Source: Methylobacterium sp. WL119
Lineage (GTDB): Bacteria; Pseudomonadota; Alphaproteobacteria; Rhizobiales; Beijerinckiaceae
Length of the DNA: 64,000 nt
Reading direction: 5' to 3'
Assembly: GCF_008039875.1 (NCBI RefSeq)
Contig: NZ_VRUU01000009.1
Location: 1-64,000 of the forward strand
In this document: positions 23,704 to 55,014 of the stretch, one piece after another
How positions within the stretch are numbered: the first letter of the stretch is position 1
Layout of the letters: every line of letters starts with the position of its first letter
Position numbers and translations under genes: made by a program
Notes under the pieces: model-generated
What the model was told of the DNA's origin: nothing
The model's database searches: none
Seen by the model: only the letters and a program-made list of their open reading frames with translations

Positions 23704-23713
23704 GCGCTGCGCG

Positions 23714-24349
23714 TCACGCGTCGTCGATGTCGCGTTCCAGCACCGTCTTCGAGGCGACGGTGGTGTCGGCCTTGAGGCGGTAGACGAGCGGCACGCCGGT
23801 GGCGATCTCCAGGCCGGCGATGGTCGTGGTGTTGAGCCGGTCGAGCACCATCACCAGGGCGCGGAGCGAGTTGCCGTGGGCGGCCACCAGCACCCGATCG
23901 CCGGCCATCACGCGGGGCAGGATCGTCTCGATATAGTAGGGCAGCACCCGGGCCGCGGTGTCCTTCAGGCTCTCGCCGCCGGGCGGCGGGATATCGTAGG
24001 AGCGGCGCCACTGGTGCACCTGCTCGGCCCCCCAGCGCGCCTTGGCGTCTTCCTTGTTGAGGCCGGACAGGTCGCCGTAATCGCGCTCGTTCAACGCCTC
24101 CGAGCGGATCGTCTCGATCTCGGACAGGCCCATCTCGCCGAGCATCAGCTTGCAGGTCCGCTGCGCCCGCCCGAGGTTCGAGGTGAACGCCACGTCGAAG
24201 CCGTAGCCCTCGCTCTTCAGCCAGCGCCCGGCCTTGTGCGCCTCGTCGACGCCGCGCTCGGTGAGGTCCGGGTTGCGCCAGCCGGTGAAGAGGTTCTTGA
24301 GGTTCCACTCGCTCTGGCCGTGGCGAGCGAGGACGAGCAAGCGGTCCAT
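23714..24349 (-). CDS. gpmA: 2,3-bisphosphoglycerate-dependent phosphoglycerate mutase
   Basis: Interconverts 3- and 2-phosphoglycerate in glycolysis and the serine cycle. The 211 residues are the short form found in many alphaproteobacteria (E. coli: 250). The phosphohistidine motif is [18 protein letters not shown] at the N-terminus, with the second catalytic histidine in [14 protein letters not shown] and substrate contacts in [12 protein letters not shown]. The ATG at 24349 gives this N-terminus directly. It sits 121 nt downstream of dapB and 10 nt upstream of alkB. Confidence 0.93.
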
Positions 24350-24470
24350 CGGGGTCCGGTCTTTCTGGGGAGGCGCCCGATCGGGCAGGTCGCTGCGGCT
24401 CCTACCAGAGCCGGGCCGAGGCCCCAAGCGCGGGCCGACCACCCGCGCCCGTCCGTGGTCGAGCGTAGCC

Positions 24471-25268
24471 TTACAGGCCGAGCACGTCTGTCATGCTGTA
24501 GAGGCCCGGCGGCTTCGGATGCGCCCAGAGCGCCGCCTTCACCGCTCCGGCCGCGAACAGGCTGCGATCTTCGGCGTGGTGCGAGAGGGTGATGCGCTCG
24601 CCGGCGCCGGCGAACATCACCGAATGATCGCCGACGACGCTGCCGCCGCGCAGCGTCGCGAAGCCAATGTCGCCGGCCCGGCGCGCGCCGGTATGGCCGT
24701 CCCGGGTCGAGACGCGGACGTCGGCGAGGTCGACGCCGCGGCCTGCCGCGGCGGCCTCCCCGAGCAGCAGGGCGGTGCCGGAGGGCGCGTCCACCTTCAT
24801 GCGGTGGTGCATCTCGGCGATCTCGATGTCGAATTCCGGCCCCAGGGCGGCGGCGACCCGCTGCACCAGGGCGGCGAGCAGGTTGACCCCGAGCGACATG
24901 TTGCCGGAGCGCACGATGCGGGCGTGGTAGGCGGCGGCCCGGAGCTTGGCGAGGTCGTCCTCCGACAGGCCGGTGGTGCCGACCACGTGGACGATGCGGG
25001 CCTGCGCCGCGAGCTCGGCGAACTGCACCGTCGCCGCCGGGACGGTGAAATCGAGCACGCCGTCGCAGGCCGCGAACGCCGTCAGCGGGTCGTCGGTGAC
25101 GGGCACGCCGAGCGGGTGGAGGCCGGCGAGCGTCCCGGCATCGTGGCCGATCGCGTCCGAGCCTTCGCGCTCGATCGCGGCCGAGAGCGTGCAGCCCTCG
25201 GCTTCCGCCACCGCGCGGATCAGCATCCGCCCCATGCGCCCGTCGGCGCCCACCACCACCAGCCGCAT
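24471..25268 (-). CDS. dapB: 4-hydroxy-tetrahydrodipicolinate reductase
   Basis: NAD(P)H-dependent reduction step in diaminopimelate and lysine synthesis, 265 residues. The dinucleotide loop [13 protein letters not shown] is at the N-terminus. The catalytic and substrate region is [16 protein letters not shown]; the canonical sequence has EIHHRHK, so one non-catalytic histidine is Met here. The C-terminal [20 protein letters not shown] is typical. It is the first gene of the dapB-gpmA-alkB unit and is divergent from the YbaL-like antiporter across 195 nt. Confidence 0.94.
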
Positions 25269-25463
25269 CGTCTTCGCCGTCCTTCGATCCGAGGATCACG
25301 GGTATAGGCTCGGTGCCGGCCTGCCAACCCGATCCTGCCGACCCGAACGTGCCTGTGCGCCGGAACACCCCCGGGTGCCATCGCGTACGGAATTCGATGC
25401 GCGATTCCGCTACGGCGTTCAGGAACGCCCATCCCGACGCCGACGCCAGGAGACCATCGCCCC

Positions 25464-39937: not shown

Positions 39938-41095
39938 TCAATGATACGGGTCGGCGGCGTCCCGAAGCCCGTCGCCCAGGAAGTTGAACGCCAGCACCGT
40001 CACCAGCACGGGCACCACCGGCAGCAGCAGCCAGGGGTAGAGCTGCACCGCCGAGAGGTTCTGGGCGTCGTTGAGCAGCACGCCCCAGCTCGTCACCGGC
40101 GGCCGAAGGCCGAGGCCGAGGAACGACAAGGCGGTCTCGCCCAGGATCATCGTCGGGATCGAGAGCGTCGCCGAGGCGATCAAGTGGCTCATGAAGTTCG
40201 GGATCAGGTGCCGGCCGATGACGCGGGCGGGCGAGGCGCCCATCAGCTCCGCCGCCTGCACGAAATCCTCCTCGCGCAGCGCCAGCAGCTTGCCGCGCAC
40301 GGCGCGCGCGAGGCCCGGCCAATCGAGCAGCCCGAGGATGATGGTGATGCCGAAGAACACCCAGAGCGGGCTCCAGCTCGGCGGCAGCGCCGCCGACAGG
40401 GCGAGCCAGAGCGGGAGCTCGGGCAGCGAGCGCACCACCTCGATCAGCCGCTGCACCGCCGCGTCGACGAAGCCGCCGAAGTAGCCGGCGATGCCGCCGA
40501 GCAGGAGCCCGAGCGCGAACGAGATCGCGACGCCGACGAGGCCGATCACCAGCGAGACCCGCGCGCCGTAGATCATGCGCGAGAGCAGGTCGCGGCCGAG
40601 CCGGTCGGTGCCCAGCAGATAGAGCGTCCCGCCCTCGGACGGGCAGACGAGGTGCCGGTCGCCCCGGCCGAGCCCGAGATGGGTGTAGGCGTCGCCGCGG
40701 CAGAAGAAGCGCAGCGGCTGCGGCGTGGCGGTGTCGGTGACGTAGCCGCGGCGGAAGGTCTCCATGTCGAGCTCGGCCCGGTACGGATAGACGAACGGCC
40801 CGACGAACCGCTCCTTGTGGAACAGGTGCACCGCTTGCGGCGGCGCGAACAGGTAGTCGCCGTTGCGCCTCGCCTGCTCGTAGGGGGCCAGGAACTCGAC
40901 GAAGGGCACGGCGGCGTAGAGTGCCAGGAGCACGAGCGCCGAGGCGACGGCGATGCGGTGGCCGAGGAACTTCCGGAAGATCAGCCGCCAAGCCGAGGCG
41001 TAGGCCGTGCCGGAATCACGTCCGCCGCCGGCCTCCGGATCGAACGGCGCCGGGTCGACGAAGTGAGGTGCCACGGGTGCCGTCTCGGGCACCAT
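39938..41095 (-). CDS. ABC transporter permease (YejE-like)
   Basis: The second membrane subunit of an oligopeptide-class ABC importer, 385 residues. It has a long N-terminal cytoplasmic part, one membrane segment near residues 50-70, and an extended periplasmic loop that is characteristic of YejE (YLFAPPQAVHLFHKERFVGP, TPQPLRFFCRGDAY). The core permease domain follows, with GTDRLGRDLLSRMIYGARVS and the ATPase-contact EAA-type loop AAELMGASPARVIGRHLIPN. Its start overlaps the upstream permease stop by 1 nt (TGATG). It is the last gene of the overlapping eight-gene unit. Confidence 0.9.
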   Translation of the reverse strand: MVPETAPVAPHFVDPAPFDPEAGGGRDSGTAYASAWRLIFRKFLGHRIAVASALVLLALYAAVPFVEFLAPYEQARRNGDYLFAPPQAVHLFHKERFVGPFVYPYRAELDMETFRRGYVTDTATPQPLRFFCRGDAYTHLGLGRGDRHLVCPSEGGTLYLLGTDRLGRDLLSRMIYGARVSLVIGLVGVAISFALGLLLGGIAGYFGGFVDAAVQRLIEVVRSLPELPLWLALSAALPPSWSPLWVFFGITIILGLLDWPGLARAVRGKLLALREEDFVQAAELMGASPARVIGRHLIPNFMSHLIASATLSIPTMILGETALSFLGLGLRPPVTSWGVLLNDAQNLSAVQLYPWLLLPVVPVLVTVLAFNFLGDGLRDAADPYH

Positions 41096-42111
41096 CAGCG
41101 TGCCCCCATGCGGATGCGCGGATCGAGCCAGACCAGGACGAGGTCCGAGATCAGCATGCCGACGAGCGTCAGCAGCGCGACGAACATCAGGATGAAGCCG
41201 GCCATGAACTGGTCCTGGCTCTTTAGCGCGTCGAGCAGCAGCGGGCCGACGGTCGGCAGGCTCAGCACCAGGGAGACGAGCACCGATCCGGAGACGAGGT
41301 GCGGCAGCAGGTTGCCGATGTCGGCGACGAACGGGTTCAGCGACATCCGGAACGGATACTTGAGCAGCGCCCGCAGCGGCGGCAGGCCCTTGGCCCGCGC
41401 GGTCACGGTGTAGGGCTTCGCGAGCTCGTCGAGCAGGTTCGCCCGCATCCGCCGGATCATCGCCGCCGTGCCGCCGAGCCCGATCACGAGCGTCGGCACC
41501 GCGAGGTGGGCCAGCAGCGACTGGACCTTCGGCCAGTCCCAGGGCTTGCCGGTGAAGGATGCGTCGTAGAGGCCGCCGATCGACAGGCCGAACCAGATGT
41601 TGGCGTAGAACAGCAGGATCAGCGCCAGCAGGAACCCGGGCACGGCGAGGCCGACATAGCCGAGCACGGTGACGACCGCGTCGCCCGCGGTATGGCGATG
41701 CGTCGCCGAGTAGATCGCGATCGGGATCGCGACGAGATGGACGAAGACCAGGGCCGCGAGGTTGACCACCAGCGTCAGCCAGAGCGCATCGCCCACCACC
41801 TCGGAAACGGGGCGATCGTACTCGAACGACCAGCCCCAATCGCCCTGCAGCAGCCCGGAGAAGCCCGCCGGGCCGGGCATCAGCCCGATCCAGATCAGGT
41901 ACTGCTCGTAGACCGGCCGGTCGAGGCCGTATTGCCGGATCAGCAGCTCGGCCTTGGCGACGGACGCCGCCTCGCCCATGGAGCGCAGCTCCATGATCCG
42001 GTTCGTCAGGAAGTCGCCCGGCGGCAGCTTGATGATTGCGAAGACGAGGGCGGAGATCACCAGCAGCGTCACCGCCATGGTGAGGACGCGGCGCAGCACG
42101 GCGATCGTCAT
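41095..42111 (-). CDS. ABC transporter permease (YejB-like)
   Basis: The first membrane subunit of the same importer, 338 residues and about six membrane segments. The N-terminal segment VLTMAVTLLVISALVFAIIK, the LPPGDFLTNR loop and the EAA-type motif PYTVTARAKGLPPLRALLKY fit oligopeptide permeases of the YejB/DppB class. The ATG at 42111 overlaps the stop of the binding-protein gene by 4 nt, and the stop overlaps the next permease by 1 nt. In E. coli YejABEF imports antimicrobial peptides such as microcin C; this substrate is unknown. Confidence 0.9.
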   Translation of the reverse strand: MTIAVLRRVLTMAVTLLVISALVFAIIKLPPGDFLTNRIMELRSMGEAASVAKAELLIRQYGLDRPVYEQYLIWIGLMPGPAGFSGLLQGDWGWSFEYDRPVSEVVGDALWLTLVVNLAALVFVHLVAIPIAIYSATHRHTAGDAVVTVLGYVGLAVPGFLLALILLFYANIWFGLSIGGLYDASFTGKPWDWPKVQSLLAHLAVPTLVIGLGGTAAMIRRMRANLLDELAKPYTVTARAKGLPPLRALLKYPFRMSLNPFVADIGNLLPHLVSGSVLVSLVLSLPTVGPLLLDALKSQDQFMAGFILMFVALLTLVGMLISDLVLVWLDPRIRMGAR

Positions 42112-44105
42112 AGCTGGGCCTGGCGTTCGGCCGGGCGGTCCCAGAACATCTCGTCGAGGCGCTGGACGCCGATCATCGCCGTCGGCTCGAAGGCGTACAG
42201 CGCCTTGGCCGGCAGGTTGGCGAGATGGCTTGCCGCGACCACCGGCTGCAGCGCGCCCCCGACCGTGCCGATGACCCAGGTGTTCTCGGCGTGGTTCATT
42301 AGCATCTCGCGCCAGATCGCCGCCTGCCTGCCCGCGTCGTCGGTGTCGCGCCACTGGCGGTCGAGGTCGATCAGGCGGCGGACGGCCTCGACGTCGCACG
42401 CCTCGCCGCTCGCCCCGTGCGTCTCGACGTGGAGGCTCCAGCGCGGCCAGGAATAATGGTCGCTCTGCGCCGGGCTCAGCTCGGTCGGCGGCATGATCGC
42501 CGTCGGCACCGCGAGGTCGAGCCCCTGCGCCGCCACCATCACCGTCATCCCGGCCACCGAGCGACGGCGCAGGTTCGTGCGTTCCTGCGGCTTGACCACG
42601 AGCTTGATCCCGACCTCGCGCCAGAACTCGCTGATCAGCAGCAGCCCGTCGAGCACCATGGAGACCTCGCCGTCGCTTTCGACGACGAGCTCGAGCAGCC
42701 GGCCGTCCGGCATCAGGCGGATGCCGGAGGGGTCGCGCCTGTCGAGGCCGGCGGCGTCGAGCAGTCTTTCGGCCGCCGCCGGTTCGTAGCCCGCATGCAG
42801 CGTGCGCATCTCGGGCGCGTAGAGCGGGCTCTCGGGGATCAGCGTGTCGTTGCCCTCGGTGCCGAGGCCGAACAGCAGGGTGTTGTTGAGGGTGCGGCGA
42901 TCGATGGCGAGCGACAGCGCGTGGCGCCAGCGCACGTCGCGGTTGAGGGCGCGCCAGCCGGGATCGAGGGTCGTCAGGTTCGGGTAGAGCGCGATCTCAG
43001 AGCCGCGCGCGAGCGGCCACAGGTTGGTGCGGTAGCCGTGCGCGCGCTCGCCCTCCTTGAGGCTCGGGATGTCGGCCATCGTCAGGCCGCGGAACATCAA
43101 GTCGGCCTCGCCGGCATTGGTCTTGGCGACGAGCAGCCCGCTCGAGGCGACGTCCATGACGATGCGGTCGAGATAGGGGAGCTGCGTGCCGGCCGTGTCG
43201 ATGCGGTGGTAGTAGGGGTTGCGCTCGAACACGAAGCGCGTCGCCGGCGCGCGGGTGCGGGGCCGCCACCCCTGCAGGGTCGGGGCGTCGGGATTGTTCA
43301 GCTCGTAGTTGTCGTCCATCCGGTTGTGCAGCGCCGCCCAGCCGCGGAGCTTCTGCGCCTTGGCCGCGGCCTCGGCCTTCTCGCGCCCGACGTATCGCGG
43401 ATGGACCGGCTTCAGGTAATGCGCCGGGCGGTAGATCAGCGGGTCGCGCGGCGCGGCGAGGGCCGGCAGGAAGCGCGGGTTCGGCCGATCCCAAGTGAAG
43501 CGCACGGTGACCGGATCGACGATCTCGACGGTCGGCGGCTTGCCGTCGACCAGCAGGAAATCGGGCGGGCCGCCGGGGCTCAGATCCCTGTCGTTGGCGA
43601 CGTCTTCCCAGTAGTAGCGGAAATCCTCCGTGGTGAAGGGCTCGCCGTCGGACCAGCGATGGCCCTTGCGCAGGGTGAAGGTGAAGCGCCCGCCCTCGAC
43701 CGCGACAGCAGCCAGCACGTCGGGCTTCAACACGAGGTCCGCATCGTAGCCGACGAGGCGGGTGTATCCGTAGACCGAGAGGTAGCGCACGTCCCGCGCC
43801 TTGGCGATCAGGGTGCGGATCGTCCCGCCGCTGGTGCCGAGCTTGCGCGCGGCGGCGGCGGGATCGACGACGAGCGGGGTTTCGGGCGGCCCTGTCCGAG
43901 GGGTATCCGCGCGGGCGAAACGAGGAGCGGCGAAAACCGTCGAGGCAGTCGCGACGCCGATCAACAATGCACGGCGCGAAATCCCGGCATCCGATGTGCG
44001 CGCCGCCTCGGCGCGCGTCTCCCTCCCCCCCTTGCGGGAAAGGGTACCTTGCGCAGCAGGGGGGGAGGGGGAGCCCGCGCTTTCGTCGTTCCGAAGCCCG
44101 ATCAA
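42108..44105 (-). CDS. ABC transporter extracytoplasmic solute-binding protein (YejA-like, Tat signal)
   Basis: The binding protein of the importer, 665 residues, family 5 (oligopeptide/dipeptide class). The Tat-type signal ISRRALLIGVATASTVFAAP begins only at about residue 42. The preceding 41 residues include a stretch (about 11-29) encoded by a palindromic repeat. The mature protein shows FTLRKGHRWSDGEPFTTEDF and RWRHALSLAIDRRTLNNTLL, standard for the family. The ATG at 44105 overlaps the methyltransferase stop by 4 nt, which supports this early start. No in-frame start lies between the repeat and the Tat motif. Confidence 0.9.
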   Translation of the reverse strand: MIGLRNDESAGSPSPPAAQGTLSRKGGRETRAEAARTSDAGISRRALLIGVATASTVFAAPRFARADTPRTGPPETPLVVDPAAAARKLGTSGGTIRTLIAKARDVRYLSVYGYTRLVGYDADLVLKPDVLAAVAVEGGRFTFTLRKGHRWSDGEPFTTEDFRYYWEDVANDRDLSPGGPPDFLLVDGKPPTVEIVDPVTVRFTWDRPNPRFLPALAAPRDPLIYRPAHYLKPVHPRYVGREKAEAAAKAQKLRGWAALHNRMDDNYELNNPDAPTLQGWRPRTRAPATRFVFERNPYYHRIDTAGTQLPYLDRIVMDVASSGLLVAKTNAGEADLMFRGLTMADIPSLKEGERAHGYRTNLWPLARGSEIALYPNLTTLDPGWRALNRDVRWRHALSLAIDRRTLNNTLLFGLGTEGNDTLIPESPLYAPEMRTLHAGYEPAAAERLLDAAGLDRRDPSGIRLMPDGRLLELVVESDGEVSMVLDGLLLISEFWREVGIKLVVKPQERTNLRRRSVAGMTVMVAAQGLDLAVPTAIMPPTELSPAQSDHYSWPRWSLHVETHGASGEACDVEAVRRLIDLDRQWRDTDDAGRQAAIWREMLMNHAENTWVIGTVGGALQPVVAASHLANLPAKALYAFEPTAMIGVQRLDEMFWDRPAERQAQL
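44019..44073. repeat. Palindromic repeat inside the binding-protein reading frame
   Basis: Arms CTCCCTCCCCCCCTTGC and, inverted, GCAGCAGGGGGGGAGGGGGAG, with a short GGGAAAGGGTACCTTGC centre. It encodes about residues 11-29 of the binding protein, ahead of the Tat signal, and keeps the frame open. It is related in style to the repeat in udgX. Confidence 0.7.
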
Positions 44106-45016
44106 GCGGCTATTCCTCGCTTCGGCGGATGCAGCGCCACGTAGGTCAGCCGGGCCGGCGAGTAGCCGGTGGCGCGGTGCAGGTCGTCGAAGGCGTGCGC
44201 GCGGGCGATGCCGGCTGCGGCCTCGCGGGCGAGCGGGTCGTTGGCCGGCTGCTCGAAGCTGCGGCCGTTGCGCTGCCAGCGGATCGGCTCGGCCCTGACG
44301 CGCCGAGCCTCGTTGCGCCCAGCCTCGTCACGCAAGGTCTCGATCATCGCGATGGTGGGATGCGCCGGGCCGCCATGGGCATGGATGCGATGGCCGGCGG
44401 CGTCGTCGTCGAACAGAAGGCGGGTGAGGCCCAGGCGCCTCGCCTCGATCACCCGCCGCCCCTGCGAGACGTGGTCGTCGAAGAACGCGACCGTCGTCGC
44501 CGCATCGAGCTGCGACCAGTCGGCCGTCGACCAGTCGGCGGTGCTGTAATGCGCTCTCGGGTCGCGATAATGCAGGTTCGACAGGTCCGGATCGTGGCAA
44601 TGGATCGTCGCGTCCGGGCAAGCCTGCCGGATCACCCAGGTGGTGAGCCCGCGGAAGACCCCGGACTCGATGACCGTGGCCGGCGCCAGCGCGCGCATCG
44701 CCACGTAGAGCTGGAGCGCGCCGTTGAATCCGCTGCCGCCGCGGCGCTGGCGCACCGGCGCCGTCGGGATCAGCGTCCAGAACCGCCGCACCGCCGCGGG
44801 CACGTCGAGGCTGGTCGCGATGCCCGACGCGGCGAGGTCGCGCTGCAGGCTGTCGGCCGCTGAGCCGAGCAACTGGTCGACCTCGCGCGGCGAGGTCGGG
44901 CGGTGCGACCAGTCGGGGGCGGCGGGCACGAGGTCGTAGCCGAGCCTGTCGAAGAACGGCGCGAGCACGCGGCGGCGGAGCCGTTCCAGCGTGCGGGAGG
45001 GGCGGGGCGTGCTCAT
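44102..45016 (-). CDS. Class I SAM-methyltransferase-like protein
   Basis: 304 residues. The central part resembles the first strand and glycine loop of SAM-dependent methyltransferases (ATVIESGVFRGLTTWVIRQA, then IHCHDPD as the acidic strand 2 end). FFDDHVSQGRRVIEA and FDDDAAGHRIHAH follow, with acidic residues suited to metal binding as in TylF- or catechol-type O-methyltransferases. A direct repeat gives STADWSTADW at about residues 158-167. It overlaps both neighbours by 4 nt (ATGA) within the transporter genes, so its product is probably linked to the transported or glycosylated compound. The family call is moderate. Confidence 0.7.
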   Translation of the reverse strand: MSTPRPSRTLERLRRRVLAPFFDRLGYDLVPAAPDWSHRPTSPREVDQLLGSAADSLQRDLAASGIATSLDVPAAVRRFWTLIPTAPVRQRRGGSGFNGALQLYVAMRALAPATVIESGVFRGLTTWVIRQACPDATIHCHDPDLSNLHYRDPRAHYSTADWSTADWSQLDAATTVAFFDDHVSQGRRVIEARRLGLTRLLFDDDAAGHRIHAHGGPAHPTIAMIETLRDEAGRNEARRVRAEPIRWQRNGRSFEQPANDPLAREAAAGIARAHAFDDLHRATGYSPARLTYVALHPPKRGIAA

Positions 45017-46854
45017 GCGGCCCGCCGCGCATCGGCCGCGCCGTGGCGGACGTGGTAGCCCGGCTCGATCTCGACCATATGGCCGGCCTCGTCGGGCGCC
45101 AGCCGGTAGGGCTCCGGCCAGCGGCCCGGGTCGGAATGGTCGCCGGTGACCGCCGAGAAATCGAGCGGGTGGTCGAGGCTCGGGTCGGGCACCGCGGCGA
45201 GCAGCGCGCGGGTATAGGGATGGACCGGGTTGCGGAACAGGGCGGCCTTCGGGGCCTGCCCCACGATTCGCCCCCGGCACATCACCGCGATGGTATCCGC
45301 CATGTAGTCGATCACCGCGAGGTTGTGAGAGACGATGAGGTAGGTCAGGCCGAGCGCGGCCTGCAAGTCCTTCAGCAGGTTCAGGATCTGGGCCTGCACC
45401 GAGACGTCGAGCGCCGAGACGGGCTCGTCGAGCACCAGCACCTTCGGATCGAGGGCGAGCGCCCGGGCGATGCCGATGCGCTGGCGCTGGCCGCCGGAGA
45501 AGGCGTGCGGATAGCGCCCGAGCGCGCCGGCTTCGAGGCCGACCATCGCCATCAGCGCCTCGGCCCGAGCCCGGCGCTCGCGCCCGCCGATCCCGTGGAT
45601 CTCCATCGGCTCGGTGAGGATCTGGCGCACGGTCATCCGCGGATCGAGCGAGGCGTAGGGGTCCTGGAACACGAACTGCACGGCGCGGCGGTAGGCGAAC
45701 AGGTCGGCGCCGGCGAGGGCGTGGACGTCGCGCGGGCCGGTGCCGTCGTCGAACAGCACGCGGCCGGCGTCGGGGGCGAGCGCGCGCATCACCATCTTCG
45801 AAACGGTGGTCTTGCCCGATCCGGATTCGCCGACGAGCCCGAGCGTCCTGCCGGGCACGAGGTCGAGCGACACGTCGGAGACCGCCCGCACGACCCGCGG
45901 CGGCCCGCCGAACCGCCCCGAGCGCAGGGTGAAGATCTTCGAGACCCCTTCGATGCGCAGGATCGGCCCGTCGATCGCCGCCGGCCTGCGTGCCGGCGGG
46001 ATCACCGCCCTGGCCGGGCGGATCGGCGTCAAGCGCTCGCCCGGCGCCATGTCGAAGCGCGGCACAGCGTGGAGCAGCGCCTTGAGGTAGGGGTGGCCGG
46101 GGTCGCGCATGACCGCGCCGCGCGGGCCGGACTCGACGAGGCGGCCGCGATAGAGCACCGCCACGTCGTGGGCGACGTTGGCGACGACGCCGAGGTCGTG
46201 GGTGATCAGCAGGATCGCCATGCCGGTCTCGTCCTGCAGCCGGGTCAGCAGCGCGAGGATCTGGGCTTGGGTCGTCACGTCGAGGGCCGTCGTCGGCTCG
46301 TCGGCGACGAGCAGGGCGGGCTTGAGGATCAGCGCCATCGCGATCATCGCCCGCTGGCGCAGGCCACCGGAGAGCTCGAACGGATAGGTGTGCAGCGCCC
46401 GCGCCGGATCGGGGAAGCCGACGCGGGCGAAGGCGTCCCTGGCCTGCACGTCGGCCTCGGCCCGGGTGGCGTTGCCGTGGATGCGCAGCGCCTCGCCGAC
46501 CTGGTCGCCGATGGTGTGGAGCGGCGACAGGCAGGTCATCGGCTCCTGGAAGATCATCGCGATGCCGGCGCCGCGGATCGCGCGCATCGCCGGGCCGTCG
46601 GGGGGCAGCGCGGCGATGTCGGTTGCCCCGCGGCCGGTGTCGAACAGGATGCGGCCGGCGCTGATCGTGGCCACCCGGGGCAGGATGCGCAGGATCGCCT
46701 GCGCGGTCACCGACTTGCCCGAGCCGGATTCGCCGACGAGCGCCAGGGTCCGCCCGCGCATCACGTCGAGCGACAGGCCGTGCAGGGCGCGGAACGGCGC
46801 ACCGTGTCCGCCAAAATCGACCTGCAGGTTCTGGATGGACAGGAGCGGGCTCAA
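45013..46854 (-). CDS. ABC transporter ATP-binding protein with two nucleotide-binding domains (YejF-like)
   Basis: Energises the importer, 613 residues with two fused ATPase domains. Domain 1 has Walker [11 protein letters not shown], signature LSGGLRQR and Walker [13 protein letters not shown]. Domain 2 has [25 protein letters not shown] and [12 protein letters not shown]. Both catalytic sites look complete. The start is a TTG at 46854 that overlaps the stop of the glycosyltransferase-deacetylase gene by 4 nt (TTGA); the expected [15 protein letters not shown] follows at once. The same polypeptide can drive both permeases, as in YejABEF. Confidence 0.93.
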
Positions 46855-48800
46855 GCGATCCTCGCAGGCGCGTCGGCCGGGCAAGTCCACCACGCCGGCA
46901 CCGCCCCGTCCACCGCCGGCGGCCGGAACAGATGCCGCGGGTCGCAGAGCGTTACCGCCGGATGCCGGAACAGGATCGCGAACAGGGCGCCGAGGAAGTC
47001 CCAGATCGCTTCGTCGTGGGCGAGGTGGTGGGTGAGCAGCCCGACCGGCCGATCGTTTCCCTCCGCGATGGTCCGGCACAAGGTGTCGATCAGCCGTGCG
47101 GGATCGACGAGCGAGCGCGTGCCGCGCCAGTCGATCGGGTCGATCGCGACGTCGGCCCACATCAGGCCGGGCACCGCCGCTCCGGGCACCGACGACAGCC
47201 CGCGATAGCCCAGCGCCGGAAGGGCGGCGGCGATTTCGGGGGCGAGGCGGTTCCACGGCGGCACGAACACCGGCAGGAGCCGGTCCGCCGGAAGCCGCGC
47301 GCGGGCGAGGCGCAGGCCTTCCGCGGCGTCCGCGATCGCGAGCGGCAGGGGACGGTCGGCGCCGAACTCCGATGGTTTGCTGCCGGGTGCGGCGTGATCG
47401 GTGTGGGCCAGTCCGTGCACGGCGAGGCTGACGCGTGGCGCGTCGGCGAGACGCTCGCTGAGGGACATCTCGATGCCTGCCGGGATCGCCGCGACGAGCA
47501 GCGGGGACGCGAAGGTGTCCGAGAGGTCGAGCAGGCGGTCCAGGGCGGGCGTCGCGGCGACGGCATCGTCGTCCCGCCACCAGATCGGCACGCGGCGGCC
47601 GCGCGCGCCGGACTCGTCGAGGACGGCGCGCAGGCGGTCGAGCGGGGTCTTCTCCGCACGGGCGCTCCGTTTCTTCGCGGCGAGGAGCGTTTCGACGATG
47701 GCGACCGTGCGCCGTGCGCCGTCGAGCGCGATGCCGTGATCTGCCGGGATCGGCGCTCCGGCTGCAGACGCGATGGCGTCGAGCAGCGTCGCCGCGGAAA
47801 GTGCGTCCTCGGGCACGATCCGGGCCAAGCCGCGGGCGGCGAGGTGCTGGGCACGCAGGCTCTGCTCGGTCTCGGCGCCTGCCGCGAACGGCACCAGCAC
47901 GGCGGGCGTCCGGGTGGCGAGGAGATCCACCGCGGTGTTGTAGCCGCAGGCGCTCACCGACACCGCAGCCCGCGCCAGAAGCGCGCGATAATTCGGCTGC
48001 GCCCGCGTCAGGACGCCGTCGGCCAGCCTCGCGCGCATGGCATCGATCTCGGCCTGCGCGATGCCGTGGCCGGCAAGGATGCGCCAGCCGAGGTCCGGCC
48101 TCCGCCGTGCCGCGTCCGCGGCGGCGCGGCAGAGGCCGAGCCCGGCCGCGCTCGACCCGGCCGAGACCAGGACGCTCGCGCGGGCATCCGCATCCTCGAT
48201 CGGCGCCGCGTCCTCGTCGACGTAGCCGGTGTATCGCAGCTTGGCGCGCAAATCCTCGTCCACCGGCCAGGAGGCGTCGAGGGCGACGAGATCGGGGTCG
48301 CCGTGCACCAGCACCGCGTCGTAGATCCCGGCCACGCGCGCATGCGCGATGCGGATCTTCCGCGGCTTCTCCGGCTCGACGAGCACGTCGCGGATCGAGG
48401 CGAGGATCAGCGGTCGCGGGCGCCGCTCGGATGCCGCCTCGACGAGGTCGAGGAATTCGGCTTCGAGCGCTCGGCGGCCGAACGGGAACAGCTCGGTGAT
48501 CACCACGTCCGGAGCCGTCTCGGCCAGCGCCTGCCGAAGCAGCGCCCGGCGTGCCGCGAGCAGGTCGGCGCCGGCCGCGTGCCCGTCCACGCCAAGAAGC
48601 CGCGCGAAGGCGGTGCCGACGATGTGCAGCGGCGGCAGTTGCACGAGGCGCAGGCCGTCGAGCCGCACCATCGGCGCAGGGCCGCCGCCCGAGACCAGGG
48701 TCACCGCATGGCCCGAGGCGGCGAAGGCGCGGCCGATCGCGGCGGCGCGGGTCAAGTGACCGGCGCCGAGGAGATGCGTGACGGCGATCAGCGCCCGCAT
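46851..48800 (-). CDS. Glycosyltransferase fused to polysaccharide-deacetylase-like domain
   Basis: A two-domain protein of 649 residues. Residues 1-375 form a GT-B-type transferase of the MurG/COG4671-like kind: a glycine-rich start (THLLGAGHLTRAAAIGRAF), SGGGPAP, and the C-terminal donor region SVSACGYNTAVDLLATRTP. Residues about 400-649 look like a NodB-type deacetylase: the metal aspartates may be in WWRDDDAV (409-412) and the histidines in VHGLAHTDHA (462-469), with PPWNR after. No membrane segment is seen. It overlaps the GT4 gene by 13 nt and the ATPase gene by 4 nt. It probably transfers a sugar and removes an acetyl group on the same product. Confidence 0.8.
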   Translation of the reverse strand: MRALIAVTHLLGAGHLTRAAAIGRAFAASGHAVTLVSGGGPAPMVRLDGLRLVQLPPLHIVGTAFARLLGVDGHAAGADLLAARRALLRQALAETAPDVVITELFPFGRRALEAEFLDLVEAASERRPRPLILASIRDVLVEPEKPRKIRIAHARVAGIYDAVLVHGDPDLVALDASWPVDEDLRAKLRYTGYVDEDAAPIEDADARASVLVSAGSSAAGLGLCRAAADAARRRPDLGWRILAGHGIAQAEIDAMRARLADGVLTRAQPNYRALLARAAVSVSACGYNTAVDLLATRTPAVLVPFAAGAETEQSLRAQHLAARGLARIVPEDALSAATLLDAIASAAGAPIPADHGIALDGARRTVAIVETLLAAKKRSARAEKTPLDRLRAVLDESGARGRRVPIWWRDDDAVAATPALDRLLDLSDTFASPLLVAAIPAGIEMSLSERLADAPRVSLAVHGLAHTDHAAPGSKPSEFGADRPLPLAIADAAEGLRLARARLPADRLLPVFVPPWNRLAPEIAAALPALGYRGLSSVPGAAVPGLMWADVAIDPIDWRGTRSLVDPARLIDTLCRTIAEGNDRPVGLLTHHLAHDEAIWDFLGALFAILFRHPAVTLCDPRHLFRPPAVDGAVPAWWTCPADAPARIA

Positions 48801-50095
48801 GCGCAGGCCTCCGCTCGCTCGGGCACCGATGCGGGACGCGGCGGCGCGATTCCCGCCGAGGCGGCGAGCCGCCCGCCGATCAGGTCGATGCCGGCATCGA
48901 GCGAGAAATCCCGCATCAGGCGCGCGCGGGCGGCGTCCGCGAAGCTCCGGCGCCGCACCGGATCGCCGGCGAGCCGCAGGATCGCCGCGGACAACGCCGC
49001 GGGATCGCTCTGCGCGACCAGGCATCCCTCGACGCCGTCGGTGACGAATTCCGGCGTGCCCGCGAAGGCGGTCGCGAGGATCGGCAGCCCCTGCGAGGCG
49101 GCCTCCATCAGCACGTTGGGCAGGCCGTCGCGGTCGCCGGACGGCGCAGGCTTGGTCGGCAGCACGAAAAGGTCGGCCGCCCGCATCGCCGCGATCACCG
49201 CCGGTTGGGCCAGGGCGCCCCGGAAGGCGACGCGGCCGCCGAGCCCGCGCTCCGCGACGCGGGCTTTCAGGTCCTCCCGAAGCTCGCCGCCGCCGATCAG
49301 GTCGAGGCGCCAATGCAGGTCCGGCGGAAGGGCCGCGAGCGCGTCGATCAGGTCGTCGTGCCCCTTCTTGGCGACGAGCCGGCCGACGCTGAGGATCCGA
49401 ATCGGATCCTGCGCATCCGTGCCGTCGCGCGGCGGCCGGAGGGGCGGCGCCGGAAAGCGGGCGAGATCGAGGCCGTGATAGGCCAGCGCGACGGAGCCGG
49501 CTTCCGCTGCCGCCCGACCCGCCGACACCGCCCGCAGGCGGCCGAGGCCGTCGCGGGTGCAGGTCACCCCCCAGGCCGCGTCGGAGAGCTTGTCGGACAG
49601 CTCGCGGTCCGGCGTCGTCCAGATGTCCTTGGCGTGCGCGGAAAAGCTCCAGCTTCGCTCCGTTAGGAGCGCGGCGTACCGCGCGACGCTGGCCGGCGTG
49701 TGGAGGAAATGCGCGTGCAGGTGCCGGACCGCCTCGGGCAGCTCTCGCGCCAGCACTAGAGCCTGCCCGAGGCGGCGGATGCGCGAGGTGGTCGGGTCGT
49801 GCAGGAAATCCGTGGCGAATTGGAGCGCCAGCGCGACGAAGCGCCGGCGGCGGAGGCCCCAGGCCAGCCCGCGCAGCACCCGCAGGGGCGCCTCGTGCAG
49901 GTATTCGGGGAGGTAGGCCACCGGCGCCGCGATCGCGTCGTGCATCGGATGGCGGCTCGCGTCGGTCGGGCGGCGCAGCGACCAGATCGCCAGTGCGAGG
50001 CCGCGGCCCTCGAGCGCCAGGATCTCCTGCGCGATGAAGGTCTCCGACAACCGCGGATAGCCCTTCAGCACGATCGCGATGCGCGCCTCGCTCAC
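48788..50095 (-). CDS. Glycosyltransferase family 4 protein
   Basis: A GT-B glycosyltransferase of 435 residues. The N-terminal acceptor domain begins IAIVLKGYPRLSETFIAQEI, which is typical of exopolysaccharide transferases. The donor domain has RILSVGRLVAKKGHDDLIDA, FVLPTKPAPSGDRDGLPNVL and the E-x7-E region (LMEAASQGLPILATAFAGTPE). The start is a GTG overlapping the preceding gene's stop by 4 nt. The sugar and acceptor are unknown. It is the second gene of the eight-gene unit. Confidence 0.9.
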   Translation of the reverse strand: MSEARIAIVLKGYPRLSETFIAQEILALEGRGLALAIWSLRRPTDASRHPMHDAIAAPVAYLPEYLHEAPLRVLRGLAWGLRRRRFVALALQFATDFLHDPTTSRIRRLGQALVLARELPEAVRHLHAHFLHTPASVARYAALLTERSWSFSAHAKDIWTTPDRELSDKLSDAAWGVTCTRDGLGRLRAVSAGRAAAEAGSVALAYHGLDLARFPAPPLRPPRDGTDAQDPIRILSVGRLVAKKGHDDLIDALAALPPDLHWRLDLIGGGELREDLKARVAERGLGGRVAFRGALAQPAVIAAMRAADLFVLPTKPAPSGDRDGLPNVLMEAASQGLPILATAFAGTPEFVTDGVEGCLVAQSDPAALSAAILRLAGDPVRRRSFADAARARLMRDFSLDAGIDLIGGRLAASAGIAPPRPASVPERAEACACGR

Positions 50096-51294
50096 GGCCT
50101 GTCACCGAGGGCGAGGACGGGTGCGCCAGCGTTCAGCACGCGGACGCGCTCGGCGATCCGGTCGAGGCCGCCGAGCAGGTCGGGGATCCGCGCGCGCGAC
50201 GGAGGCGCCTGGTCCGGCAGGGCCCGGAGCGCCGCCGCCATGCGCATGGGGTCGCGCCCGTCCGCCTCCAGCACGGTGCGGGCGAGGCCGAGGCCTTCGG
50301 CGGCCACCGCGCGGATCTCCTGCTCGCGCCGCGGCGTGGTGCGCGGCACCAGCACCGCCCGCTTGTCGAAGGACAGGATCTCGCAGAACGTGTTGTAGCC
50401 GCCCATCGCCACGACGCCTGACGCCTTCTCCATCAGCAGCTCGATCTCGCTGTCGAAGGTGATCGCGGAGAGCCGGCCCGGCAGCCGCGCGATCCGGCCC
50501 AGAAATGCCGCCCGGCTCTTCGAGGCGAGGAAGGGTCCGAAGGCGATCAGCGCGGGAAGCGGGATCGCGGGATCGGCCTCGTAGGCCGAGATCACCCAGT
50601 CGATCAGCCCGTCGCCGTCGCCGCCGCCGCCGGGGGTGACCAGGATGAACGGCTCGGCCGCGACGCCGGGCTCGGCCCGGTCCGGTCGGGCGCGCGGCGC
50701 GGCGCGGTGGAGATAGCCGGTATAGGTCGTCCGGTCCGAGAATTCCGCACCCACGGGAAGCGCGGCCAGCGGCCGGTGGATGCGCGCGAGGCCGTAGATC
50801 CAGATCTCGTCGTAGAACCGGCGGACCGCCTCCGAAGCGCCCTTGCGCTCCCATTCCGGCACGAGGCGGTCGGGGTCGTCGAGGACGTCGCGCAGGCCCA
50901 GCACCACGCGGCAGCCGCGGGCGCGCAGGTGCTCCAGCGTCGGCAGCATCTCGCCGTGGAAGCCCGTCGGCTCCTTATCGACGATCACGAGGTTCGGCCG
51001 AAAGTCGCGGGCGGTGCGCAGGACGATGTCGGCGCGCCGGGCGACCGTCTCCTGCAGCGACGCCTGCGGGTCGAGCCCGGCATAGCTGCCGTCGGCGCGC
51101 TTGGTCACGCCGGGCACGCGCACGGAGGAGACGCCGCGGGCGAAGGCGAAGCGGGCGACCACCGTCGAGCCGGAGACGATCATCGCCTCGACCTCGCCGG
51201 TGCCGGCCAGCGCGTTCGCGATGGTGCGCGAGCGGCGCAGGTGCCCGAGCCCGAACGTGTCGTGGCTGTAGATCAGGACGCGGCTCGGGCGCAT
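50092..51294 (-). CDS. Glycosyltransferase, COG4671/MurG-like
   Basis: The first gene of the eight-gene unit, 400 residues. It has a GT-B layout with an N-terminal IYSHDTFGLGHLRRSRTIAN (a G-x-G-H-L-R-R pattern typical of the predicted glycosyltransferases of COG4671). The middle has FILVTPGGGGDGDGLIDW, and the donor site GVVAMGGYNTFCEILSFDK. No membrane segment is seen. The ATG at 51294 is 279 nt from the divergent pseudo-ABC gene. It resembles the transferase half of the fusion protein two genes downstream, so these may have arisen by duplication. Confidence 0.85.
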   Translation of the reverse strand: MRPSRVLIYSHDTFGLGHLRRSRTIANALAGTGEVEAMIVSGSTVVARFAFARGVSSVRVPGVTKRADGSYAGLDPQASLQETVARRADIVLRTARDFRPNLVIVDKEPTGFHGEMLPTLEHLRARGCRVVLGLRDVLDDPDRLVPEWERKGASEAVRRFYDEIWIYGLARIHRPLAALPVGAEFSDRTTYTGYLHRAAPRARPDRAEPGVAAEPFILVTPGGGGDGDGLIDWVISAYEADPAIPLPALIAFGPFLASKSRAAFLGRIARLPGRLSAITFDSEIELLMEKASGVVAMGGYNTFCEILSFDKRAVLVPRTTPRREQEIRAVAAEGLGLARTVLEADGRDPMRMAAALRALPDQAPPSRARIPDLLGGLDRIAERVRVLNAGAPVLALGDRP

Positions 51295-51573
51295 CACGGT
51301 CTCATCCTCGAACGCCCCCTCGCGCCGCCGCCATCCGCGCCCCGGCACGCGCAGCGCGTGCAGGCGCAGCGTCGCAGCCGGTCTGCGGTCGCACAAGCCG
51401 GGCCGCCGTGACAATGCCTCGCGTGGGACGACACCGCATTCCGGAGTGACGGAGGCCCGGGGCTGTGAGTCCGCGCACGCTCGGGCTTCGCCTTTTCGTT
51501 GCACGATGACATGCGTGTGACGCGCGGGCTCGCGAGAGGGTATGGGAGCCGGAACGGGGGCCGGGGACGGGCG

Positions 51574-54270
51574 ATGCGGGATCTGGAGCCGACGCTGTTC
51601 GGCTATATCTGGCGACATTCGAAGCGCGACCAGTTCGCGATCTGCGCCGTCGTGCTCGCATCGCTGCCGTTCTACTTCGCCTCGCTCGACCTGCCCAAGC
51701 GCATCGTCAACGACGCCATCTCCGGCAAGGCGTTCAAGGGCGGGCGCGAGACCGTCGACTTCCTCGATCTCATCATCCACTGGCCCGGCTGGCTCGGCGG
51801 CGAGCAGGAGGTGCTGTTCTCGGGCTTCGAGGTCGACCGCACCGGGCTGCTGTTCGGGCTCTCCGGGCTGTTCCTGACCCTCGTGCTGATCAACGGCGCG
51901 TTCAAGTTCTGGATCAACCTCAGCAAGGGCGTGCTCGGCGAGCGCATGCTGCGGCGCCTGCGCTTCGAGCTGTTCTCGCTGATGCTCCGCTTTACCCCGG
52001 ACACGACGCGCGAGGTGAAGTCGTCGGAGACGGCGACCATCATCCGCGACGAGGTCGAGCCGATCGGCGCCTTCATCGGCGACGCGATCGTGGTGCCGTG
52101 CTTCCTCGGCACGCAGGCGGCGACCGCGCTGATCTTCATCCTGATGCAGAACCTGTGGCTCGGGCTCGTCGCCGGCTCGATCGTCCTCGTGCAGATCGTT
52201 GTGATCCCGCGCCTGCGCCGCGAGATCATCCGCTTGAGCCGGAAGCGCCAGATCGCGTCGCGGAGCTTCGCCGGCCGGGTTGGCGAGGTGCTGGACGGGC
52301 TCGAGGCGGTCACCGTCAACGACACCGGGCGTTGGGAGCGTGCCGAGATCGGCGGCCGGCTGTTCAGCCTCTACGACCTGCGCCTGCGGATCTACCGGCG
52401 CAAGTTCCTGGTGAAGTACCTGAACAACCTGCTCGCGCAGGTGACGCCCTTCCTCTTCTACGCGATCGGCGGCCTGTTCGCGCTGCGCGGAGAGCTCGAC
52501 ATCGGCCAGCTCGTGGCCGTGCTGGCCGCCTATCGCGATCTGCCGCCGCCGCTCAAGGAGCTGATCGACTGGGACCAGCAGCGCCTCGACGTCGAGGTGA
52601 AGTACGAGACCGTCGCCGCCCACTTCGCGCCGCACCGGCTGCGGCCGTCCGAGCCGGAGGGCCAGGGCCTGGTACGGCCCCTCGGCGGCCCGCTCGAGCT
52701 GGACGGCGTCAGCCTCAAGGATCCCCTCGGCGGCCCGGCGCTCGAGCTCGGGGCCGTCAGCCTGCCGATGCCGGTGCAGGCCGCGATCCTCGCCCCCGCG
52801 GGCGGCCTCGGCCACGTGGTCGCGCGGCTCGTCGCCGGGCTGCAGGCGCCGCAGGGCGGAACGGTGCGGATCGGCGGCGCGGACGTCGCCACGCTGCCGC
52901 AGGCCCGCCGGGCCCGCGCGCTCGCCTATGCCGGGCCGGAGCCGGTTCTGTTTCCCGGCACGATCCGCGACAATCTCGCCTACGGCCTGCGCCGGCGCCC
53001 GGTGATCCGCGACGACGCCGGCAGCCCGGAGCGTGCGCGGCGCCGGCGCGCGGAGGCGCGGCGGACCGGAAACCCGATCGAGGATGCGAGCGATCCCTGG
53101 ATCGACTACGCCGCCCTGGGCCTGGCGGACGCCGCCGCCCTCGACGCGCGGATGCTCGACCTGCTGCAGCGCCTCGGGATGGGCGACGACCTCTACCGCT
53201 TCGGCCTCAGCGCCTACAGCTTGGTGCACCACGAGTCCGAGCCCGGGCGTCGGGTCGTCGCCGCGCGCCGGCACCTGCAGCAGCACTTCGCGGCCGCGGG
53301 CATGGCCGACCTCGTGATCCCGTTCGATCCGCGCCGCTACAACGAGCAGGCGACGATCGCGGAGAACCTCCTGTTCGGCGTGCCGACCGTTCCGGAACTG
53401 ACCGGGCGCAACCTCGCGTCCGAACCGCGCTTCCGCGCTGCCCTCGACAAGCTGTTCCTGCTCGACGACCTCGCCCGGATGGGCGTGGCGATCGCCCGGA
53501 ACCTGGTCGACATCTTCCGCGACGTGCCACCGGGCCATCCGCTGTTCCGCAGGTTTTCGCTGATCGCGCCGGACGAGCTGCCGGTCTTCGAGCAGCGGCT
53601 CTCGGCCCTCGGTGCCGACGAGGCGCCGCCGGCGGCCGACAACGAGGCGTTCCTCGCCCTCGCCCTGGCCTACGTCGAGCCGCGCCAACGGCTCGGCCTC
53701 CTCGATGCGCCTTATCGGGCGCGGCTGGTGGCGGCGCGCTACACGGTCCGCGAGGCGCTTCGACGGGAGGACGGCACCGAGGACGTCGAGCCCTACGATC
53801 CCGAGCGGATCAACCGGCACAGCTCGATCCTCGATGCGCTGCTCTTCGGCCGGATCAACACCGCGCGGATGCACGGCGAAGCCGAGATCCAACGCCAGGT
53901 CCGCCTCGTCGTGCAGGAGTTCGACCTGGAACGCCGCATCCGCCTGCGCGGGCTGGATTTCCCCGTCGGCAACCGCGGCCGCCTGCTCACCCCGCGCCAG
54001 CAGGCGCTCGTCGACCTCGCCCGCGCGATCCTGCGGCGGCCGGAGATCCTGGTGGTCGACGGAACGATCCCGCATCTCGACGGCGGCGCATCGGCCCTGA
54101 TCGCGGCCGTCACCAGCGGCGGGCCGCAGATCAGCCTCGTCGCGGTCGCGGCGACGGAAGCCGAGGCGGCGCCGTTCCCGGTTCGTCTGCGCTTCGACAC
54201 GACCGGTTCGGTCCGCGTCGAGACCGCGCCGGAGCCGGAGGTCTCGGTGCCGACCGCGCGTTCGGCCTGA
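51574..54270 (+). CDS. ABC-exporter-like protein with degenerate, extended nucleotide-binding region
   Basis: 898 residues. The N-terminal exporter-type membrane domain (about 20-320) has the usual segments and the cytoplasmic stretch RSFAGRVGEVLDGLEAVTVN. The C-terminal region looks like an ATP-binding cassette but lacks key residues. The Walker A position reads APAGGLGHVV with no lysine (408-417), the signature LLTPRQQALVDLA has no SGG, and Walker B EILVVDG lacks the catalytic glutamate (824-830). The segment after the Q-loop occurs three times: PGTIRDNLAYG (461), QATIAENLLFG (592) and SSILDALLFG (750). It is divergent from the glycosyltransferase operon. It is probably not an ATP-driven pump on its own. 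Confidence 0.85.
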   Translation: MRDLEPTLFGYIWRHSKRDQFAICAVVLASLPFYFASLDLPKRIVNDAISGKAFKGGRETVDFLDLIIHWPGWLGGEQEVLFSGFEVDRTGLLFGLSGLFLTLVLINGAFKFWINLSKGVLGERMLRRLRFELFSLMLRFTPDTTREVKSSETATIIRDEVEPIGAFIGDAIVVPCFLGTQAATALIFILMQNLWLGLVAGSIVLVQIVVIPRLRREIIRLSRKRQIASRSFAGRVGEVLDGLEAVTVNDTGRWERAEIGGRLFSLYDLRLRIYRRKFLVKYLNNLLAQVTPFLFYAIGGLFALRGELDIGQLVAVLAAYRDLPPPLKELIDWDQQRLDVEVKYETVAAHFAPHRLRPSEPEGQGLVRPLGGPLELDGVSLKDPLGGPALELGAVSLPMPVQAAILAPAGGLGHVVARLVAGLQAPQGGTVRIGGADVATLPQARRARALAYAGPEPVLFPGTIRDNLAYGLRRRPVIRDDAGSPERARRRRAEARRTGNPIEDASDPWIDYAALGLADAAALDARMLDLLQRLGMGDDLYRFGLSAYSLVHHESEPGRRVVAARRHLQQHFAAAGMADLVIPFDPRRYNEQATIAENLLFGVPTVPELTGRNLASEPRFRAALDKLFLLDDLARMGVAIARNLVDIFRDVPPGHPLFRRFSLIAPDELPVFEQRLSALGADEAPPAADNEAFLALALAYVEPRQRLGLLDAPYRARLVAARYTVREALRREDGTEDVEPYDPERINRHSSILDALLFGRINTARMHGEAEIQRQVRLVVQEFDLERRIRLRGLDFPVGNRGRLLTPRQQALVDLARAILRRPEILVVDGTIPHLDGGASALIAAVTSGGPQISLVAVAATEAEAAPFPVRLRFDTTGSVRVETAPEPEVSVPTARSA

Positions 54271-54369
54271 GGCGGCGCGTGAAACGCCGGCTTTCTGCCT
54301 GGAATTTCCGTGTTGGAAACCGATTCTGCACTGTCGTCTCGACAAAATGCCGAAGAAGCGTCATGGAAT

Positions 54370-55014
54370 ATGGTACGCGTCCGCGCGTTCCTGTCCAAAT
54401 CCAAGAGAATCATACGCCGCATGTTGCGCAGCCGTGTGCGACGGTCCTTTACCGTCGAGGTCAAGTCGAAGAACCGCCACTCTCTGTCCTGGCCGGATGA
54501 TCCTACCCCGGCGCCCCTGAACTGGGCCGCGCTCGATCCGGCGCCCGAGACGCCGTCGCCGTTCGATACGGTCTGGCCCGACCAGGCCGCCGCCCCCGCG
54601 CCGCCGGTGCCGGCGGAGAAGCCTCGGCGAATCCTGCAGAGCCTGATCCTGGCGGAGCCCGAGCCCGAGGTGGCCGAACCCGTGATCGAGCGCGAGCTTC
54701 GGCTTCCGCGCGTGAAGCGGGTGAAGCCTCCGCAGATGCGGTCCGAAAGCCCGCGCGCCGAAGCCGGCCGTTCGGATCAGGCACGATCCGAAATGGTGCG
54801 CCCCGATGCGATCTGGTCGTTCGCCGACATCGCGGACGCGTCCTCGGAGCCCGCTGTCGCTGCCCCGGCGATCCCGGCTCCGCCGGTGACCGCCGTCGCT
54901 CCGGTCGCCGCAGCGCCTGCCGTGATGCGCAGGCCGACGAAGTCGCGATCGACCGAACCCGCCCTCGCGCCGGGCCAGCGCTGGAAGCGGCGCCTGCCGC
55001 GCTCCTGCCGCTAG
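54370..55014 (+). CDS. Hypothetical basic/proline-rich protein
   Basis: Not recognised. The 214 residues begin with a very basic segment (KSKRIIRRMLRSRVRRSF), continue with a Pro/Ala/Glu-rich, probably disordered region, and end in LAPGQRWKRRLPRSCR, which looks like a compact conserved terminal motif. There is no signal peptide or membrane segment. A GTG at 54310 could start a version 20 residues longer. It follows the pseudo-ABC gene by 99 nt on the same strand and might belong to that transcript. Confidence 0.55.
   Translation: MVRVRAFLSKSKRIIRRMLRSRVRRSFTVEVKSKNRHSLSWPDDPTPAPLNWAALDPAPETPSPFDTVWPDQAAAPAPPVPAEKPRRILQSLILAEPEPEVAEPVIERELRLPRVKRVKPPQMRSESPRAEAGRSDQARSEMVRPDAIWSFADIADASSEPAVAAPAIPAPPVTAVAPVAAAPAVMRRPTKSRSTEPALAPGQRWKRRLPRSCR

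Follow-up and report, generated by a model that had tools for sequence, protein, structure and literature searches.

ATP-binding cassette (ABC) exporters are textbook ATP-driven machines. A stretch of 64,000 nucleotides from Methylobacterium sp. WL119 (contig NZ_VRUU01000009.1, positions 1 to 64,000; hereafter the window) encodes, at 51574..54270 (+), a protein that keeps the predicted fold of such an exporter and has lost its catalytic motifs. This pseudo-ABC exporter belongs to an alphaproteobacterial family whose members, in a reading that we favour tentatively and place slightly below an even chance, act as ATP-independent gates or transducers at the inner membrane under the control of a cyclic nucleoside monophosphate (cNMP). 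The fold is kept, catalysis is lost, a segment of the motor domain is repeated, and a sensor is joined or fused to it; a gate or transducer set by cyclic nucleotide would be the simplest account of the four together.

Three hallmarks of type IV ABC exporters, the Walker A sequence GxxxxGK[ST], the SGG signature and the catalytic glutamate of Walker B, are missing from the window protein. A scan of all 898 residues found no GxxxxGK, no [LIVM]SG[GEQ] and no hhhhDE anywhere; because GxxxxGK is absent throughout, no P-loop lies hidden, by motif, elsewhere in the chain, an eventuality raised in an earlier note on this DNA. That note had reported the loss of the Walker A lysine, SGG and the Walker B glutamate, and the scan bears it out; the Q-loop glutamine and the H-loop histidine are lost as well. 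By alignment, the degenerate Walker A occupies residues 407–414 (APAGGLGH; 52792..52815, +), the degenerate signature residues 804–810 (LLTPRQQ; 53983..54003, +), and Walker B, its glutamate lost, residues 825–830 (ILVVDG; 54046..54063, +), with P455 and A860 standing in the columns of the Q-loop glutamine and the H-loop histidine, respectively. Such a protein presumably does not hydrolyse ATP.

The same degeneration extends across the family. After five of 168 aligned rows were dropped for having a cassette identical to that of another row, the survey of homologues proposed in the earlier note covered 163 non-redundant members, in which GxxxxGK[ST] is found in 4, GxxxxGK in 38, SGG in 2, the Asp-Glu of Walker B in 4, the Q-loop glutamine in 11 and the H-loop histidine in 15; no member has GxxxxGK[ST], SGG and Asp-Glu together. 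A recent local decay, which close homologues with intact motifs would betray, did not show, as the Walker A lysine occurs in none of the 84 rows of an alignment of close relatives. Intact Walker motifs are thus lacking in the close rows and surface, weakly, in remote ones. At the level of aligned sequence, motif loss is clearly a family trait, total in the window protein, with the Walker A lysine gone from all close relatives aligned. Among the 163 members, 40 have a lysine at the Walker A column, followed in 30 by glutamate or aspartate and in 4 by serine, at the position that we take to be the place of the Mg-binding serine or threonine. Asparagine replaces the Walker B aspartate in 48 members, many of the lysine-bearing ones among them. 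On a quick tree built with a simple model from 103 of the 163 rows, the lysine state requires nine changes, at least eight of them forced by well-supported branches. The ancestor probably had a working P-loop, since the 40 remote members keep the lysine and four keep GxxxxGK[ST]; Mg-dependent hydrolysis would have disappeared at an early stage from most of the family, to be followed by repeated losses of the lysine. Two Methylobacterium members (L044 and L051) present an SGG signature despite a degenerate Walker A.

The fold, as predicted, has survived this erosion. An AlphaFold2 model of the window protein (82 sequences; mean predicted local distance difference test, pLDDT, 84.6; predicted template-modelling score, pTM, 0.80) has exporter topology, and its matches to solved exporters fall between residues 5 and 887, with 3qf4_A at Z 22.8 (root-mean-square deviation, rmsd, 5.7; 431 residues aligned) and the heterodimeric TM287/288 and TmrAB among the best. 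The transmembrane domain (residues 8–350; 51595..52623, +) consists of long helices in the model, matches Pfam ABC_membrane (PF00664) at residues 91–318 with 34.5 bits against a cut-off of 28, and contains a conserved loop between the first and second transmembrane helices (about residues 50–88) that exporter topology would place in the periplasm. Behind it, the nucleotide-binding domain (NBD) scores 22.8 bits with ABC_tran over residues 416–537, below the cut-off of 25. In the predicted model, a complete NBD fold is nonetheless superimposable on the ComA NBD (3vx4_A; Z 22.5, rmsd 2.7, 224 aligned), and the model can be said to show an exporter fold with a complete NBD fold. A usual exporter NBD has about 240 residues. 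Here, modelled residues 368–887 (520 residues) align to solved NBDs over only 207–232 residues (rmsd 2.4–3.3, Z about 22), leaving some 290–310 extra residues in the pseudo-NBD, congruent with the earlier proposal that the cassette was lengthened by internal duplication.

The pseudo-NBD holds three copies of one segment: U1 (residues 446–582; 52909..53319, +), comprising the Q-loop strand, a helical segment and an equivalent of the signature helix; U2 (residues 577–741; 53302..53796, +), the longest; and U3 (residues 735–840; 53776..54093, +), which runs on into the degenerate signature and Walker B. When their family profiles are compared by HH alignment, U2 is related to U3 at E 1.6e-14, U1 to U2 at 6e-7 and U1 to U3 at 6.3e-7; E values no better than 0.055 came from nine control pairings. 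The shared order is Q-loop strand, N-L-x-(F/Y)-G, helical stretch, and a helix with an invariant arginine (R565, R722 and R817). The three short segments first noticed at residues 461, 592 and 750 were correctly placed; they are homologous by profile alignment, and the repeat is longer than was noted. U1 aligns to both other units along its whole course, which starts at the Q-loop, takes in the helical stretch and reaches the signature-helix equivalent; the direct alignment of U2 to U3 is limited to 63 columns, the Q-loop and first helices. When the signature parts are aligned alone, U1/U2 and U1/U3 reach E 1.2e-8 and 1.4e-4 and U2/U3 a non-significant 0.015, so that the equivalence of the last repeat part across the units rests on U1. 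Moreover, U1 runs on from the Walker A side (the ABC_tran match of residues 416–537) and U3 leads into the side of the signature and Walker B, where profile positions of about 272–373 match canonical exporters in the PDB (best E 8.8e-23); about two additional copies of the middle part of the canonical NBD thus interrupt that domain.

Modelled alone, the insert (pLDDT 86.0, pTM 0.68) has no match in Pfam, nor does Foldseek find one at E 0.001 or better. With VIA-align, 11 of 415 chains reached Z of at least 2, and ten of these are ABC NBDs or ABC proteins, matched at the middle of the NBD, which by our reading of the residue numbers would be the helical subdomain; the best pairs insert residues 587–727 with the middle part of CFTR NBD1 (5tfi; Z 5.0, rmsd 2.6, 72 aligned). 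As these Z values are low, the structural matches serve as support for the sequence result only. An unrelated inserted domain was considered and, as far as the families covered by these searches go, rejected: the units are homologous, no Pfam or Foldseek match was found, and ABC proteins prevail among the VIA-align matches.

The constant companion of the pseudo-ABC gene is a cNMP-binding protein consisting of a single short domain. A survey of 121 loci, each 12 kb or longer and with near-identical strains among them (partner called by tblastn at E 1e-8), found it in 92, always downstream and on the same strand: the genes overlap by 4 bases in 45 loci and otherwise in 3, lie within 200 bases in 32, and are fused in frame in 12. 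When every open frame in the loci was also screened, which gave 17 fused frames, the combined count came to fifteen distinct fused genes, and the Pfam domain PF00027 sits at the C-terminus in all five fusions scanned. A phosphate-binding-cassette pattern occurs in 79 of the 92 partner proteins. The partner would bind a cNMP and may contact the pseudo-ABC protein physically. Beyond these linked loci, the genome of the window encodes an intact orthologue of 147 residues on another contig (G000:C228:47170-47610; PF00027, 69.6 bits), up to 82% identical to linked partners. Each of 59 genomes of the genus examined has exactly one such orthologue at E 1e-25 or better, and in 8 of the 59 this single gene adjoins a pseudo-ABC gene by coordinates. 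Five class III cyclase domains are encoded in the window's genome.

Taken together, these features suggest a putative exporter-fold homodimer that would no longer hydrolyse ATP. The cNMP-binding protein would dock on the enlarged pseudo-NBD and, once docked, set the conformation of the pseudo-ABC exporter, which would then gate the membrane or transduce a signal and, in many species, serve a pathway of envelope glycans; gating itself would be by cyclic nucleotide. In the case of the window protein, the role of partner would fall to the orphan cNMP-binding protein from the other contig, acting in trans. A more specific version, in which the protein is a fully ATP-free, cyclic-nucleotide-gated conduit or switch whose triplicated helical subdomain forms a docking surface coupling a cyclic AMP or cyclic GMP sensor to the transmembrane helices, is unlikely; it would make the family a bacterial parallel to CFTR, an ABC pump turned gate. 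If the gate or transducer reading is true, the family would make directly testable whether a ligand instead of ATP can drive an exporter fold, and would give alphaproteobacterial cyclic nucleotides a non-transcriptional target in the envelope. The label 'ABC transporter ATP-binding protein' carried by several public records is misleading.

Several observations weigh against this reading. In the clade of the window protein, no adjacent cNMP gene is found in any of the 24 loci of at least 12 kb, which are 23 genome loci and one plasmid whose proteins are 61–71% identical to it; five further loci (L153, L160, L161, L178 and L183) also lack one, for a total of 29 of 121. Two more loci listed without it, L192 and L193, stand outside the survey. 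Because the partner gene is no longer adjacent, the gate reading is weaker for the window protein than for its relatives. The orphan cNMP gene (L192, G000:C228:40000-56000) lies among unrelated genes, with SCO1-like, L,D-transpeptidase and PhyR genes nearby, and its link to the window protein is therefore indirect. The phosphate-binding-cassette pattern is missing from 13 of the 92 linked partners. Three remote members fused to a cNMP domain (L134, L135 and L137) keep GxxxxGKS and Asp-Glu with a degenerate signature and may still use ATP, so that 'ATPase-dead' may not hold for the whole family. Lastly, glycan genes need not accompany the pseudo-ABC gene: among the 23 genome loci in the clade of the window protein, 15 have nothing of the cluster in the stretch covered (only 2 kb upstream in L006). 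As a separate observation, L150 is the same gene as L134, likewise cNMP-fused, with GxxxxGKS, Asp-Glu and a degenerate signature.

Conceivably, the protein could be one half of a conventional exporter, pairing with an active half encoded elsewhere and supplying the degenerate site of an asymmetric pump. The heterodimers TM287/288 and TmrAB among its best structural matches would suit this, and 94 ABC_tran matches in the genome provide candidates for the missing half. Known degenerate exporter halves, however, keep the Walker A lysine and lose only some residues, whereas the window protein has lost every motif; nor is an exporter half a conserved neighbour in eight annotated regions, neighbours elsewhere having been tested with named queries only. 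The constant neighbour is the cNMP-binding protein instead, and we consider a half in trans quite unlikely. The earlier suggestion of a scaffold, a receptor or a partner for another ATPase can be made more specific, as the association that is conserved involves a cNMP-binding protein and not a second exporter half; that the protein is one of these 'rather than a pump' is likely. An equally doubtful possibility is a nucleotide sensor without hydrolysis, in which nucleotide, possibly in the absence of Mg2+, binds to a pseudo-NBD that signals energy state or a second messenger to the membrane domain. The lysine-bearing members, with their predominantly acidic next residue, fit binding without hydrolysis, but the window's branch has lost both the lysine and the glycine frame, and the repeated changes of the lysine on the tree imply that this contact is dispensable.

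Very unlikely, too, is an accessory role beside the neighbouring oligopeptide-type importer, whose tandem ATPase would drive or contact the pseudo-exporter and so tie uptake to glycan assembly. A tandem-ATPase match is present, within the stretch covered, in 53 of the 121 loci, although some are weak and are to other ABC ATPases, and in Azospirillum oryzae the tandem ATPase gene lies directly 3' of the pseudo-ABC gene. Importer ATPases nevertheless dock on their own permeases, and no importer match lies near several copies that keep the partner (e.g., L051, L148–L152 and L156). Finally, a decaying gene with no function left in the window lineage is extremely improbable. The partner gene is no longer adjacent, as decay might have it, and in each of the eight pairs compared the ratio of nonsynonymous to synonymous substitution rates (dN/dS) of the core around the dead Walker A exceeds that of the membrane domain, yet dN/dS lies well below 1 throughout, which largely refutes decay, the frame is intact, and 58 of the 59 genus genomes carry a family member at E 1e-40 or better. 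Local decay is likewise rejected by the family-wide loss of motifs together with these ratios.

By the Nei-Gojobori method, over eight pairs and four parts of the protein, dN/dS ranges from 0.018 to 0.36. In every pair the tightest constraint falls on the membrane domain (0.018–0.121), and the core with the dead Walker A, always above it, spans 0.067–0.343; against the relative L001, the values by domain are 0.08–0.28. Ratios well below 1 in every part indicate a protein in use and under purifying selection. Consistent with this, the frame is uninterrupted, as the earlier note had it, and full-length relatives align to the protein starting at residue 1–4. A scan of genome contigs confirmed 557 relatives among the stretches scanned, of which 80 were taken as a sample. 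With a family-specific profile built on residues 470–845 (clear matches at E 1e-20 or better, the next at 1.6e-15; genomes of class and phylum counted by hand at that threshold), clear matches occur in 131 of 385 Alphaproteobacteria genomes. In a sample of the phylum, 31 of 398 genomes match, all of them Alphaproteobacteria, and none of about 263 genomes from the other classes does. The window's genome holds a second, divergent family member (L082, G000:C222 about 23270-25810, at a contig end), 29% identical to the window protein overall and 39% in the insert region, with GIRGSGAR at Walker A; its type is widespread across the genus sample.

In membrane domain and overall NBD fold, the window protein resembles MsbA-type (type IV) exporters, and its best NCBIfam profile is TIGR02203 MsbA; at 70.8 bits against a cut-off of 602, it does not qualify as an MsbA lipid A exporter. 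Unlike these exporters, it lacks the catalytic motifs and has an NBD of about 520 residues in the model, with one segment present three times. In CFTR and SUR, an ABC exporter fold has become a gated channel or a regulator. Both retain ATP binding, and one site of CFTR also hydrolyses ATP; to our knowledge, neither has a repeated NBD segment, and we know of no channel activity in the pseudo-ABC family. A cyclic-nucleotide-binding domain on which an ABC exporter depends is described for HetC of Nostoc PCC 7120, which is reported to combine a C39 peptidase with an N-terminal cNMP domain that binds ppGpp in vitro and to have an ATPase residue essential for differentiation (PMC10986499). Relatives of the window protein couple an exporter fold to a cNMP domain by fusion or adjacency; in the window itself, no cNMP gene lies next to the pseudo-ABC gene. 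HetC requires its ATPase. In contrast to the N-terminal domain of HetC, the cNMP domain of the five family fusions scanned is C-terminal, and no Pfam match to a C39 peptidase was found, at E up to 1 for the window protein and at E up to 0.01 for the five fusions. TIGR03896 (cyc_nuc_ocin), a cNMP-containing family named for ABC bacteriocin transport, shares that domain with the partner proteins, two of which match it weakly (38.5 and 48.1 bits, cut-off 161). A defence system was considered and rejected: the cNMP protein matches Pycsar models over the cNMP domain only, and the window protein has no PADLOC match at E 0.01. The open-access literature searched yielded neither a description of the pseudo-ABC family nor any biochemistry on it.

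One exporter-like gene initially considered a likely characterised member, Sinorhizobium meliloti MsbA2 (SMb21191), is placed near glycosyltransferases on pSymB in three reports (PMC3687685, PMC12239276, PMC5596199). Its genome position rejects it. A fragment of SMb21188, from the msbA2 operon, maps to pSymB 938297-938439, no family tblastn match at E 1e-5 lies within pSymB 932-952 kb, and the family copy lies at pSymB 841723-844435. The true S. meliloti copy may be SMb20813, called an msbA homologue in PMC10945364.

Upstream of the pseudo-ABC gene, the window carries a glycan and importer cluster on the reverse strand. Divergent from the gene lies a GT28-C type glycosyltransferase (50092..51300, −, start approximate; PF04101; 44% by tblastn to a RedA-like protein of S. 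meliloti), followed by a RedB-like GT4 glycosyltransferase (48788..50095, −; PF00534, 106 bits) and a GT28-C glycosyltransferase fused to a polysaccharide-deacetylase-like part (46851..48791, −; PF04101; 40% to an annotated polysaccharide deacetylase), the two parts of which have counterparts as separate genes in several relatives. Next come a tandem ABC ATPase of oligopeptide-importer type (45013..47016, −, start approximate; PF00005 in two stretches plus oligo_HPY), an uncharacterised protein (44102..44884, −; no Pfam match; present in 5 of 121 loci at E 1e-8) that by its position may be methyltransferase-like, an SBP_bac_5 substrate-binding protein (42108..44105, −; PF00496, 166.8 bits) and two importer permeases (39938..42111, −), which are 53% and 62% identical to oligopeptide ABC permeases annotated on R. 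etli pA. On the other side of the pseudo-ABC gene, a 234-residue frame at 54310-55014 (+) has no Pfam or NCBIfam match and may not be a gene.

Such a neighbourhood is frequent in the family, and the pseudo-ABC protein may have a link to glycan export. Two cluster genes on R. etli CIAT 652 plasmid pA (L182) are named redA and redB, names for which no explaining paper was found in the open-access literature. The set was not seen around the Ruegeria and M. radiotolerans plasmid copies. A similar set surrounds family copies in S. meliloti, R. etli, Phyllobacterium, Shinella and Azospirillum, and near the pseudo-ABC gene in the 121 loci, matches were found to the GT28-type glycosyltransferase in 72, the GT4 enzyme in 71, an ABC ATPase like the tandem one in the 53 already mentioned and the SBP_bac_5 protein in 47.

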